NCBI GenBank assembly: GCA_022562795.1
Contig: JADFOP010000020.1
Coordinates: 1-34,003, forward strand
DNA length: 34,003 nt
Reading direction: 5' to 3'
DNA from: Nitrospinota bacterium
GTDB taxonomy: Bacteria; JADFOP01
How positions within the stretch are numbered: position 1 is the stretch's first letter; each line of letters starts with the position of its first letter. Shown here one piece after another: positions 10,322 to 33,526 of the stretch. The position numbers were made by a program, and so were the translations under genes. The notes beneath the pieces were generated by a model that was not told the origin of the DNA, ran no database searches, and saw only the letters and a list, made by a program, of their open reading frames with translations.

Positions 10322-11371
10322 CTAGACTTTTTCAACCAACCAGCCTTCGATTTCAACTTCCACCGCCCGGTTTAGGAGGTCCACCGAGATGACGATCCTC
10401 TGGCGCTTCTCTATGACCCCCACCATAATGCCCTCGGCTCCCTTCAGGGGCCCGTCGACCACCTGGACCCGATCACCGGTATCAAGGTACGGGTGGTGGC
10501 GGACGTGGAGGCCCGATTCAACAACTTTTTGGATGGAGTGGACTTGCTCCTCGGGAACAGGGACGGGTTTGTCGGCGTAGCCAAGGAGATTGGCCGCGCC
10601 GGGCGTCTTGACGATCTCGAGCCAGGCATCCTTCGTGAGCTCGCACTCGACGAAGAGGTAGCCAGGGAACATGGGTTGAGTGATCCGCTTTTTGCGATCT
10701 TTGCGGCGGCTCCAGACCTCAATTGTTGGCAAGAAGGCGTGAAATTTCTTGCTTAGAAGCCGGTCTGTAACCTTCTGTTCGTGGCGGCTCTTCGTCCTGA
10801 GCGCATACCACTTAACGGAGGGATCTTTCGGGGATTTTAGATGGCCAAGGCCCTCGGGCAGCAGGGCGAGAAGCTCCTCGACCACCTGCTCGGGCGCCCG
10901 GTCGGTCGTCTCAACATTGATGGTGGCCAGGGCGTTATAGACCGGCTCGCGCTCCTCCAAGAGAGCCTCGAAGGAGGCTCGCGGGTCGCCGGGGTCGAAG
11001 AAGGCAGGCAGGCCCTCGTCCATAATGCGGGCAAAGAGCGCTTCTTTCTCCACCTTGAGGTAGACCACACAGGACTGGGCGATCTGTCTCCTAAGGGGCT
11101 CACTGATAAGGGGTGTGCCCCCGCCTAGGGATATCACCTGCCCGTCGGTGGCGATGAGGTCGCCGGCCACTTCGGCCTCCAGCCGCCTGAAAGCCTCCGC
11201 GCCGAGGTTGCGGAAGATATCCCGAAAGGCAAGCGGCTCGCCCGAGCTGGAGGCGTAGCGGTGCTCGATTGCTTGGTCGAGGTCGACGAAAGGCCTCTCA
11301 AGGCGGTGGGCCAGGGCCCGGCCCACGGTCGTCTTGCCCGAGCCTTTAAAGCCGATGAGGACGACGTTCAT
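10322..11371 (-). CDS. Shikimate kinase fused to a NusG/RfaH-like antiterminator
   Basis: One uninterrupted 349-residue frame holds two unrelated domains. Residues 1-175 are a shikimate kinase: Walker A GFKGSGKTT (7-15), substrate Asp in DLDQAIE, FRRLEAE, and VISLGGGTP (79-87). The lid region is atypical, with GLPAFFDPGDP in place of the usual RPLL arginine, then EEREPVYNA. Residues 186-349 are a NusG N-terminal domain (KWYALRTKSRHEQK, then FPGYLFVE) followed by a KOW domain (DTGDRVQVVDGPLKGAEG). This resembles RfaH/UpxY-type specialised NusG paralogues. The codon at the domain boundary, where such proteins normally begin, is GTT and no in-frame start or Shine-Dalgarno sequence is nearby, so it is a true fusion. 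It overlaps the miaA stop by one base (TGATG). Confidence 0.88.
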   Translation of the reverse strand: MNVVLIGFKGSGKTTVGRALAHRLERPFVDLDQAIEHRYASSSGEPLAFRDIFRNLGAEAFRRLEAEVAGDLIATDGQVISLGGGTPLISEPLRRQIAQSCVVYLKVEKEALFARIMDEGLPAFFDPGDPRASFEALLEEREPVYNALATINVETTDRAPEQVVEELLALLPEGLGHLKSPKDPSVKWYALRTKSRHEQKVTDRLLSKKFHAFLPTIEVWSRRKDRKKRITQPMFPGYLFVECELTKDAWLEIVKTPGAANLLGYADKPVPVPEEQVHSIQKVVESGLHVRHHPYLDTGDRVQVVDGPLKGAEGIMVGVIEKRQRIVISVDLLNRAVEVEIEGWLVEKV

Positions 11372-31097: not shown

Positions 31098-31418
31098 TCA
31101 AATCTCCCAGGCGTCGATCCCCCCCTCAAGAACCGAGACTTTTAGAAAACCCTTTTCTCTCATCCTGGCCGCCGAACTGGCGGCCGAGCCTTCGCCAGGT
31201 CAGGTTCAATAGAAAACGATATCCTGTTCCGGGTTTAGAACAACATACCGCTGGTGGAGCACTACCTTTGGGATCGAGATGGCCCCCGGCACGCGGTGGT
31301 CGTTGAAGCTTTCTACCCTACGGACATCTACGATAACCAGGTCTGCTTCCTTCTGTTTAAGCTCCCTGATTGCCTGGGGGGTGATACGTGGAATTTCCTC
31401 TGCAAGCACCGTCGTCAT
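31098..31418 (-). CDS. Rhodanese-domain protein with double selenocysteine (UTUP)
   Basis: A single-domain rhodanese of 106 residues that is whole only if two TGA codons are read as selenocysteine. The start is MTTVLAEEIPRITPQAIREL, with the rhodanese CH2A-like block ADLVIVDVRRVESFNDHRVPGAISIP. The active-site strand reads DIVFY-U71-T-U73-PGEGSAASSAA, then REKGFLKVSVLEGGIDAWEI. Canonical relatives have YCxCPxE here, so both Cys positions are TGA (31206-31208 and 31200-31202). The sequence after them is a perfect rhodanese tail (GG-D-AW). A 7-bp hairpin follows at 31167-31185. The final TGA at 31098 is taken as the stop; a TAG four codons on is the alternative. The ATG has a perfect AAGGAGGTGAT binding site. 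It has no signal peptide, so cytoplasmic sulfur or selenium transfer is likely. Confidence 0.82.
31167..31185 (-). promoter_or_regulatory. Candidate SECIS hairpin of the rhodanese selenoprotein
   Basis: On the mRNA strand GGCCGCC-AGUUC-GGCGGCC forms a perfect 7-bp stem with a five-base loop containing GU. It starts 14 bases after the second UGA, within the usual bacterial SECIS distance. Confidence 0.65.
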
Positions 31419-31448
31419 TGGGAATCACCTCCTTTTGGGACGATAATT

Positions 31449-31542: not shown

Positions 31543-31893
31543 CTAACCCTCGTTAATCAGCCCAAGAAGTTCGTTGGCGGTATCACCATGTAAGTCTTTG
31601 AGAATGTTATACTCTTTCACTGCGCCCTCTCGGTTGCCGATTCTATGGTAAGCTAGGCCCAAATTATAGTGCGCCCCGACAAGGTCGGGCTTCAGAAGTA
31701 TCGCCACCTTGAATGCCATCACCGCTTCTTCGTAGCGGCCAAGATTCCCGTAAGCCGATCCCAAGTTATAGTGGGCCTCGGCATCGTCAGGCTTAAGGCG
31801 AATCGCTTCCTTGTACGACGCTTTTGCATCCTCGTGATGCCCTGAACGAAGTCCCTTAAGCCCCTGTTCTAGCAGCGAAGAAAGGTCTTCCAT
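31543..31893 (-). CDS. Small TPR protein
   Basis: A 116-residue protein made almost wholly of three tetratricopeptide repeats: SGHHEDAKASYKEAIRLKPDD, AEAHYNLGSAYGNLGRYEEA and VGAHYNLGLAYHRIGNREGA, followed by a capping helix. There is no signal peptide or catalytic domain, so it is a protein-binding adaptor with unknown partner. The ATG at 31893 has GGAG eight bases upstream; the TTG just before it is ignored. It lies between the rhodanese selenoprotein and selO on the same strand. Confidence 0.75.
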   Translation of the reverse strand: MEDLSSLLEQGLKGLRSGHHEDAKASYKEAIRLKPDDAEAHYNLGSAYGNLGRYEEAVMAFKVAILLKPDLVGAHYNLGLAYHRIGNREGAVKEYNILKDLHGDTANELLGLINEG

Positions 31894-31944
31894 CAAGTAG
31901 GCTCCGTTTATCGATTATTAGGGCTGGATAAATTCTACCACAGG

Positions 31945-32038: not shown

Positions 32039-33526
32039 TTACGTTCCACAGAAAGTGGCTTTTATCTCTTCTTCCGGCAGTGGAGCTGCTCCATAAGAAT
32101 CCAGATCCGGTTGATGCTTATAAGGGTTTATTAGAACTTTATTTATTTCATTAAAAACCGAGAGGTCACCGTCTATTGCACTTTGTATGGCCCTTTCCAC
32201 CTGATGATTTCGAGGGATATACAGAGGATTGAGGCGATTCATTTTTTCTTTAATAGTAGCAATGTCTATATTATCCTTCTTCAATCTTTTCCTCCAAGCC
32301 TGTACGAAATTTTCAAATTCGCTCGAAGGGCTAAATCGCAAATTTATGTGTTTTTCATTCACCTCCAACAAACCCGAAAGCTTTCTAAAAGAGAGAGTGA
32401 AGTCGAGCTTTTCTTTTTCTAAAATATCAAGCCACATCACAATTAATTTTTCATCTTCATTCTTAGTGGAGGGACTTGAAACAATACCCAGTTTTGCGGC
32501 CATTCGTTTGTGCCACTCACTTGTAAAAAGATCGCTGATCGTTGCTAATTCGTTATTTAACAACTCTATTGCTTTGTCATCGTTCGAATCCACCAGGGGA
32601 ATGAGGCAATCGGCTAGTCGACATAGATTCCAATGGACGATCGTTCTTTGGTTTTTATAACAGTAACGTCCATGTGAATCTATATAGCTGTATACTTGAT
32701 CGAAGTTAAAATGATCCATAAAAGCACAGGGACCATAATCCATGGTTTCTCCTGAAACCGTCATATTATCCGTATTCATCACTCCGTGGATAAAACCCAG
32801 ACTCATCCAATTCCCCACCAGAGGGACTTGCGCTTCAATTACTTTTTTTAAAAATAAAATAGCTGGGTTTAATGCTTCTGAACTTTCTTGAATTGCTGTT
32901 TTAATTTCTGGATAATGACGCTCGATCGAATAATCCAGCAGGGTTTTTAATCCCTCGAGGTCACCTTTGCCGGCAAAGTATTGGAAAGTACCTATACGTA
33001 TATGACTGGCTGCGACCCGGGTAAATACTGCGCCTGGAAGTGCCTCCTGGCGGTAAACCATATCACCCGTAGCGACAGCGGCCAAAGCTCTCGTCGTGGG
33101 CACTCCCAAGTGATGCATTGCTTCACTTACAATATATTCACGAATCACCGGGCCCAGGGCGGAGTATCCATCGCCATTTCTAGAAAATAATGTCGGTCCG
33201 GATCCTTTAAATTGAATATCAAAGCGTTTGCCCTTTGGATCGAGGACCTCTCCCAGAAGCATTGCCCGCCCATCTCCAAGCTGAGGGACAAAATTTCCAA
33301 ACTGATGTCCCCCATAGGTCATAGCAATAAAATGAGAGCCTTCGAGAAGTTTTTGTCCGCAAAAGATTTCGGCCAGACTTGTAGCGTCTTGCTCTCCCAG
33401 GTTTAAGCCCAATTCACTGGCTAGCTTTTCATTAAATGCCAATAGCTTCGGGTTTGAGAAACTTTCTGGAGTGGCCTCTGCGAAAAACCTCCCGGGCAGG
33501 GCGTCATAGGTATTATTAAATTTCAT
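32039..33526 (-). CDS. selO: SelO-family protein adenylyltransferase (YdiU-like)
   Basis: A 495-residue SelO pseudokinase. The family transfers AMP, not phosphate, from ATP to protein Ser/Thr/Tyr and responds to oxidative stress. Hallmarks are GGHQFGNFVPQLGDGRAMLLGE, FKGSGPTLFSRNGDGYSALGPVIREYI, HGVMNTDNMTVSGETMDYGPCAFMD (Asn/Asp metal site and DYG in place of DFG), and the C-terminal PYxP-like region. The third-last residue is Cys493 (FCGT-stop), where animal SelO has Sec and E. coli has CSS. So this selenoprotein family uses Cys here (TGT), although other genes in the window use Sec. GC is far lower than the window average, pointing to transfer. The ATG at 33526 has GAGAG upstream. Confidence 0.92.
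   Translation of the reverse strand: MKFNNTYDALPGRFFAEATPESFSNPKLLAFNEKLASELGLNLGEQDATSLAEIFCGQKLLEGSHFIAMTYGGHQFGNFVPQLGDGRAMLLGEVLDPKGKRFDIQFKGSGPTLFSRNGDGYSALGPVIREYIVSEAMHHLGVPTTRALAAVATGDMVYRQEALPGAVFTRVAASHIRIGTFQYFAGKGDLEGLKTLLDYSIERHYPEIKTAIQESSEALNPAILFLKKVIEAQVPLVGNWMSLGFIHGVMNTDNMTVSGETMDYGPCAFMDHFNFDQVYSYIDSHGRYCYKNQRTIVHWNLCRLADCLIPLVDSNDDKAIELLNNELATISDLFTSEWHKRMAAKLGIVSSPSTKNEDEKLIVMWLDILEKEKLDFTLSFRKLSGLLEVNEKHINLRFSPSSEFENFVQAWRKRLKKDNIDIATIKEKMNRLNPLYIPRNHQVERAIQSAIDGDLSVFNEINKVLINPYKHQPDLDSYGAAPLPEEEIKATFCGT

Follow-up and report, generated by a model that had tools for sequence, protein, structure and literature searches.

A putative double-selenocysteine rhodanese with a Sec-x-Sec active-site loop in a Nitrospinota bacterium

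We identified a gene for a single-domain rhodanese in a Nitrospinota bacterium in which two in-frame UGA codons, one codon apart, occupy both cysteine positions of the active-site loop. The product is very probably a true double-selenocysteine rhodanese. The frame, its conservation, a SECIS hairpin and a tRNA-Sec are all observed; actual selenocysteine (Sec) insertion at the two sites is inferred, there being no protein or 75Se data. The window, that is the whole stretch of DNA analysed (34,003 nucleotides), is contig C20 of the genome here called G000, and the features discussed below are collected in Table 1.

Table 1. Coordinates of the rhodanese gene and its associated features in the window.
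Feature	Position	Strand	Remarks
Putative double-selenocysteine single-domain rhodanese, 106 aa	31098..31418	-	ATG 31418, stop TGA 31100-31098; translated with TGA=U
Shine-Dalgarno AGGAGGTGA of rhodanese gene	31425..31433	-	Strong; read from sequence
UGA-1 = Sec71 (predicted)	31206..31208	-	Catalytic Cys position of rhodanese loop; U in 16 loci
UGA-2 = Sec73 (predicted)	31200..31202	-	Second Cys of CxC loop; U in 34 loci (16 UxU, 18 CxU), C in the 8 CxC
bSECIS hairpin GGCCGCC-AGUUC-GGCGGCC	31167..31185	-	7 perfect pairs, 5-nt loop AGUUC
Upstream TPR protein travelling with rhodanese	31543..31896	-	Segment 92-96% identical to sister genome; functional association not shown

With TGA translated as U, the minus-strand product reads MTTVLAEEIPRITPQAIRELKQKEADLVIVDVRRVESFNDHRVPGAISIPKVVLHQRYVVLNPEQDIVFYUTUPGEGSAASSAARMREKGFLKVSVLEGGIDAWEI followed by the stop, and the loop, ...VFY-UGA-T-UGA-PGEGSAA..., brings both UGAs onto the two cysteines of the CxCP loop. 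An earlier, sequence-only reading of the window had followed a rhodanese frame through TGA-ACC-TGA-CCT; this frame is borne out, with the addition of the strand, which had not been stated. A plus-strand reading of the same interval was rejected because the frame there is not a gene. With Cys in place of the two UGAs, the protein matches PF00581 (Pfam) at 56.0 bits, for a gathering cut-off of 22.2. An AlphaFold2 model made with 22 aligned sequences as input has a rhodanese fold with a mean pLDDT of 92.4, and its top fold matches are rhodaneses in the PDB. Residue 71 comes directly after the modelled strand 66-70, and in the alignment it falls on the family's loop Cys. By profile, predicted fold and position of the loop nucleophile (Sec for Cys), the protein meets the criteria for a rhodanese domain of PF00581; its sulfurtransferase activity is inferred.

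The double UGA (UxU) was found at 16 loci in 15 genomes of four phyla, the window gene and a paralogue included, and related genes have either one UGA (CxU, n=18) or none (CxC, n=8). Cysteine is encoded at the first site in all 18 CxU and all 8 CxC relatives, and the occurrence of C or U at exactly the two positions confirms the earlier assignment of both UGAs to the cysteines of the loop. The paralogue in G000, also with two TGA codons, is 70% identical to the window protein and lies on contig C5 (C5:51038-51340; L041 7039-7341), directly 3' of nuoH within the nuo cluster. In a genome of the same genus, Nitrospinae bacterium AH_259_B05_G02_I21 (G001), the gene is 94% identical, with UAU replacing UTU and both TGA codons kept. 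The window and G001 copies, at 95.5% DNA identity compared with 80-82% elsewhere, appear to have been exchanged recently and so do not count as fully independent. Two TGA codons are also present in G034 (38-40% identical) and in G018, which are more distantly related. A contig search matched the congener alone because its patterns had been built with Cys codons.

A survey of 386 genomes gave CxU forms in several genomes and one further UxU form, in G318. Among 85 genomes of the phylum of G318, two TGA codons were found in 11 and one in 4, and there was one match with none. The double UGA is not a matter of chance: about 30 of the matches listed at E<=1e-10 in the 386 genomes have an in-frame stop, which is TGA in every case; no TAA or TAG was found inside the rhodanese frames of these listed matches, which came from the first profile. 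Stops at unrelated positions in homologues, named beforehand as an observation that would refute the reading, did not appear, in-frame TGA being confined to the Cys sites. In the tree, the UxU label changes by gain or loss at least five times, with at least three of these changes forced by well-supported (starred) branches, so that Sec and Cys have replaced one another repeatedly at the first position. The protein of the G318 phylum has an N-terminal signal-like segment, and cytoplasmic and exported forms therefore both seem to exist. At three loci (L090, L094 and L096) a DedA-like membrane part is joined to a CxU rhodanese that has the SECIS of the family. These are seleno-forms of the DedA-rhodanese fusion, with the DedA part judged by eye only.

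The gene neighbourhood was considered as a guide to function and set aside, as the neighbours differ in each lineage (nuoH; TPR/SelO; TauE; sucAB; disulfide reductase) and none is a firm partner. The segment 31082-31889 of the window, holding the rhodanese and TPR genes, is 92-96% identical to G001; identity in the other genes shared with G001 is 80-82%, and the genes flanking the segment are not the same. The segment looks like a recently exchanged cassette. Nearby, a gene for SelO (protein adenylyltransferase, Cys form) at 32039-33526 has 42% GC in a window of 60% GC, is absent at the matching place in G001, and was probably acquired. Elsewhere in the window, an unusual fusion of shikimate kinase (PF01202) and a NusG N-terminal domain (PF02357) is encoded by a single ORF (10322-11371). 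At L044 6610-6936 in G018, sucA/sucB-type genes are followed by a C-D-C rhodanese without UGA and then by the UxU one.

In rhodanese chemistry the first loop residue carries the persulfide. The window protein would be a small cytoplasmic single-domain rhodanese with a Sec-x-Sec-P loop where its sulfur relatives have C-x-C-P. tRNA-Sec and SelB would decode both UGAs as selenocysteine under the direction of one downstream bSECIS. Judging by homology, the first Sec would act as the nucleophile and bind sulfane sulfur (or selenium), forming a selenopersulfide. The second, two residues on, may release the cargo and close an easily reduced diselenide, which a thioredoxin-like or pyridine-nucleotide-disulfide reductase could then reopen. 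Sec at position 2 is the common family state (CxU); UxU has a further Sec, in the catalytic position, and the two states have interchanged several times. The selenopersulfide/diselenide chemistry is an inference that we advance tentatively, at just short of even confidence. We are a little more reserved about the fuller proposal of a diselenide sulfur/selenium-transferase, one that has Sec as nucleophile and as resolving residue alike, occurs both in the cytoplasm and as an exported protein across four phyla, depends on one SECIS for two insertions one codon apart, and may handle selenium (as selenopersulfide or selenide) rather than sulfur.

A real double-Sec rhodanese could instead serve as a redox or peroxide-reducing couple, a diselenide oxidoreductase and not a sulfurtransferase. 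The resemblance of CxC and UxU to dithiol redox motifs is consistent with this, as are the MerA/lipoamide-dehydrogenase-like disulfide reductase adjoining the gene in G403 and G406 and the 2-oxoglutarate dehydrogenase genes that come before it in G018. However, the fold is that of a plain rhodanese, the neighbour in G034 is a TauE/SafE sulfite exporter, and the variation of neighbours by lineage makes the context weak either way. The redox role remains a possibility of about one in three; we rate sulfur/selenium transfer somewhat above it, and neither has been shown.

The hairpin downstream of the UGAs begins after an interval of 14 bases from UGA-2, and its loop is 21 nt after UGA-2 and 27 nt after UGA-1. 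The seven perfect pairs and the 14-base distance had been correctly given in the sequence-only reading, which described the loop merely as GU; it is AGUUC. Folding energy is -14.9 kcal/mol, compared with a shuffled mean of -5.95 (z -4.2). The published bSECIS model has a loop of 3-9 nt with G in the first two loop positions, a stem of 4-16 bp, a UGA spacing of 16-37 nt and an MFE <= -7.5 (PMC13188914). The window hairpin satisfies every point of this model for both UGAs. In isolation, some of the relatives' hairpins fold less stably than -7.5, and no SECIS family was found in the window by Rfam at gathering thresholds.

Hairpins at this fixed place, with a stem of at least 4 bp and the loop N-G-[G/U]-N-N, are present in 16/16 UxU, 18/18 CxU and 0/8 CxC genes, where a synonymous-recoding null gave means of 0.95/16, 1.29/18 and 0.44/8. 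Over 33 distinct sequences, 80.5% of the stem cells are paired and the covariation score is 0.366, versus 0.167+/-0.018 for shuffled sequences (none of 500 shuffles as high) and 0.05-0.15 with a slid partner. One stem pair swaps between GC and CG, and the next between UA and CG, many times across the sequences. The two outermost pairs form in only a minority, so that the conserved core is five pairs. Summed over five pairs of genes, four-fold sites differ at 2/26 positions in the SECIS, 50/109 upstream and 17/37 downstream. The hairpin covaries and its four-fold sites are almost fixed, a pattern that the encoded protein does not explain. The sequence-level tests set out beforehand have thus all come out favourably, with C or U at both sites, recurrent swaps at the first site and a supported bSECIS.

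We infer that this one hairpin is used for both UGAs; a second hairpin is not needed. Inserting Sec twice at sites one codon apart is expected to be inefficient, which counts against the double-Sec reading. A single UGA might be read as Sec and the other suppressed by a Trp or Cys tRNA, or the gene might yield mostly a truncation of 70 or 72 residues, with Sec insertion rare. Such readings gain from the cost of double insertion and from the position of the SECIS, which is set relative to UGA-2 throughout the family, CxU included. They are nevertheless improbable, because Cys codons are the only alternative to UGA-1 across the tree, because the loop of this hairpin is 27 nt away from UGA-1, inside the published range (PMC13188914), and because truncation would cost the protein its active site.

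Values of dN/dS past the SECIS are 0.04-0.21 in most pairs, and the two G000 paralogues give 0.13, which indicates that the 3' part is translated and under protein-level selection; G000 and G001, taken as a pair by themselves, are too alike to tell. It is very difficult to maintain that the gene is a decayed or mis-sequenced CxC rhodanese with two TGA codons that are errors or pseudogene stops. The assembly is indeed a fragmented draft (84 contigs) without selA and selB, but both codons are TGA in 16 loci from 15 separately assembled genomes, there are no other internal stops, purifying selection acts on the codons downstream, and the UGAs are followed by a hairpin that covaries. Genome-wide reassignment of UGA to an ordinary amino acid can be dismissed, with nothing in its favour, since TGA is the commonest stop in the window and ends 15 of its 31 genes, in-frame TGA is confined to the Cys sites and a SECIS is present.

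The genome encodes a tRNA-Sec (77.6 bits, anticodon UCA) and a selD that has its own in-frame UGA and lies at a contig end. We did not find selA or selB in the G000 assembly, which is 97% complete, and this absence is the main weakness of the double-Sec reading. Both genes are present in G034, G018, G026 and G001, adjacent to one another in the last, and selD was not found in the G001 assembly. Of the sel genes that the earlier reading proposed to look for, selC and selD were thus seen in G000 itself, and selA and selB not there but in its congener. Sel genes can be missing from incomplete assemblies. The place of selAB in G001 is rearranged in G000, where the flanks map inside contigs C34 and C78 without selAB. 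A single contig gap, considered as the cause, is therefore not shown and does not explain the missing genes; that they are lacking both from the assembly and from the place held in the congener counts against the double-Sec reading.

A 2026 review lists the rhodanese selenoprotein forms UxxS, UxxG, CxU and a further UxxG, plus the double-Sec fusion TsoB (UxxxxU), and UxU is absent among them (PMC13188914). We found no match for a UxU rhodanese in the searchable literature; an unseen report is still possible. Haft and Tolstoy (2025) are said to be the source behind several of the listed entries. Single-Sec rhodaneses were, as the earlier reading held, already known, and form 3 (CxU, NF041203 rhodanese_LYCAU) is of the same subtype (PMC13188914, PMC9312934). 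It resembles the window protein in fold and loop (YCxU in form 3, YUxUP here), and CxU relatives carry the UxU-type SECIS at the same place, but form 3 has one Sec and a first-position Cys where the window protein has a Sec codon at both. NF041203 is the best NCBIfam match of the window protein, at 65.9 bits, without reaching the cut-off of 115; the other UxU and CxU proteins scanned score 47-94 bits, all below it. Standard annotation can readily overlook UxU genes, since a stop codon stands at each of the two Cys positions and none of the NCBIfam models is matched above its cut-off.

The earlier statement that no double-Sec rhodanese had been described cannot stand as worded, given TsoB (NF045694, a rhodanese/DsbD fusion-like selenoprotein, UxxxxU, with two Sec; PMC13188914). 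TsoB shares with the window protein a rhodanese-related domain and two Sec, but it is a 572-position fusion model, in contrast to a single 106-aa domain with U-x-U, and against this model the UxU and CxU proteins score at best 36 bits (cut-off 805). The closest Cys forms, 32-41% identical, are CxCP rhodaneses, often DedA-fused (Cupriavidus, Caballeronia and others), which differ in having no UGA and no SECIS (0/8) and in being mostly membrane fusions. A UxxU motif is listed for SelL and Prx-like selenoproteins (PMC2398784, PMC13188914). Here too a redox motif contains two closely spaced Sec, but with two residues between them and in a thioredoxin/peroxiredoxin fold of an unrelated family. Shchedrina et al. 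(2007) reportedly described a diselenide in SelL. Since CxU and a two-Sec rhodanese fusion are already listed, the U-x-U arrangement alone appears undescribed, and it is no new class.

The double-Sec rhodanese adds an apparently unlisted U-x-U motif to the prokaryotic selenoproteome. It offers a small natural system for asking if a single bacterial SECIS can support Sec insertion at two sites separated by six nucleotides, and the UxU, CxU and CxC homologues of this one small enzyme form a ready set with which the contribution of each Sec to rhodanese chemistry may be measured.
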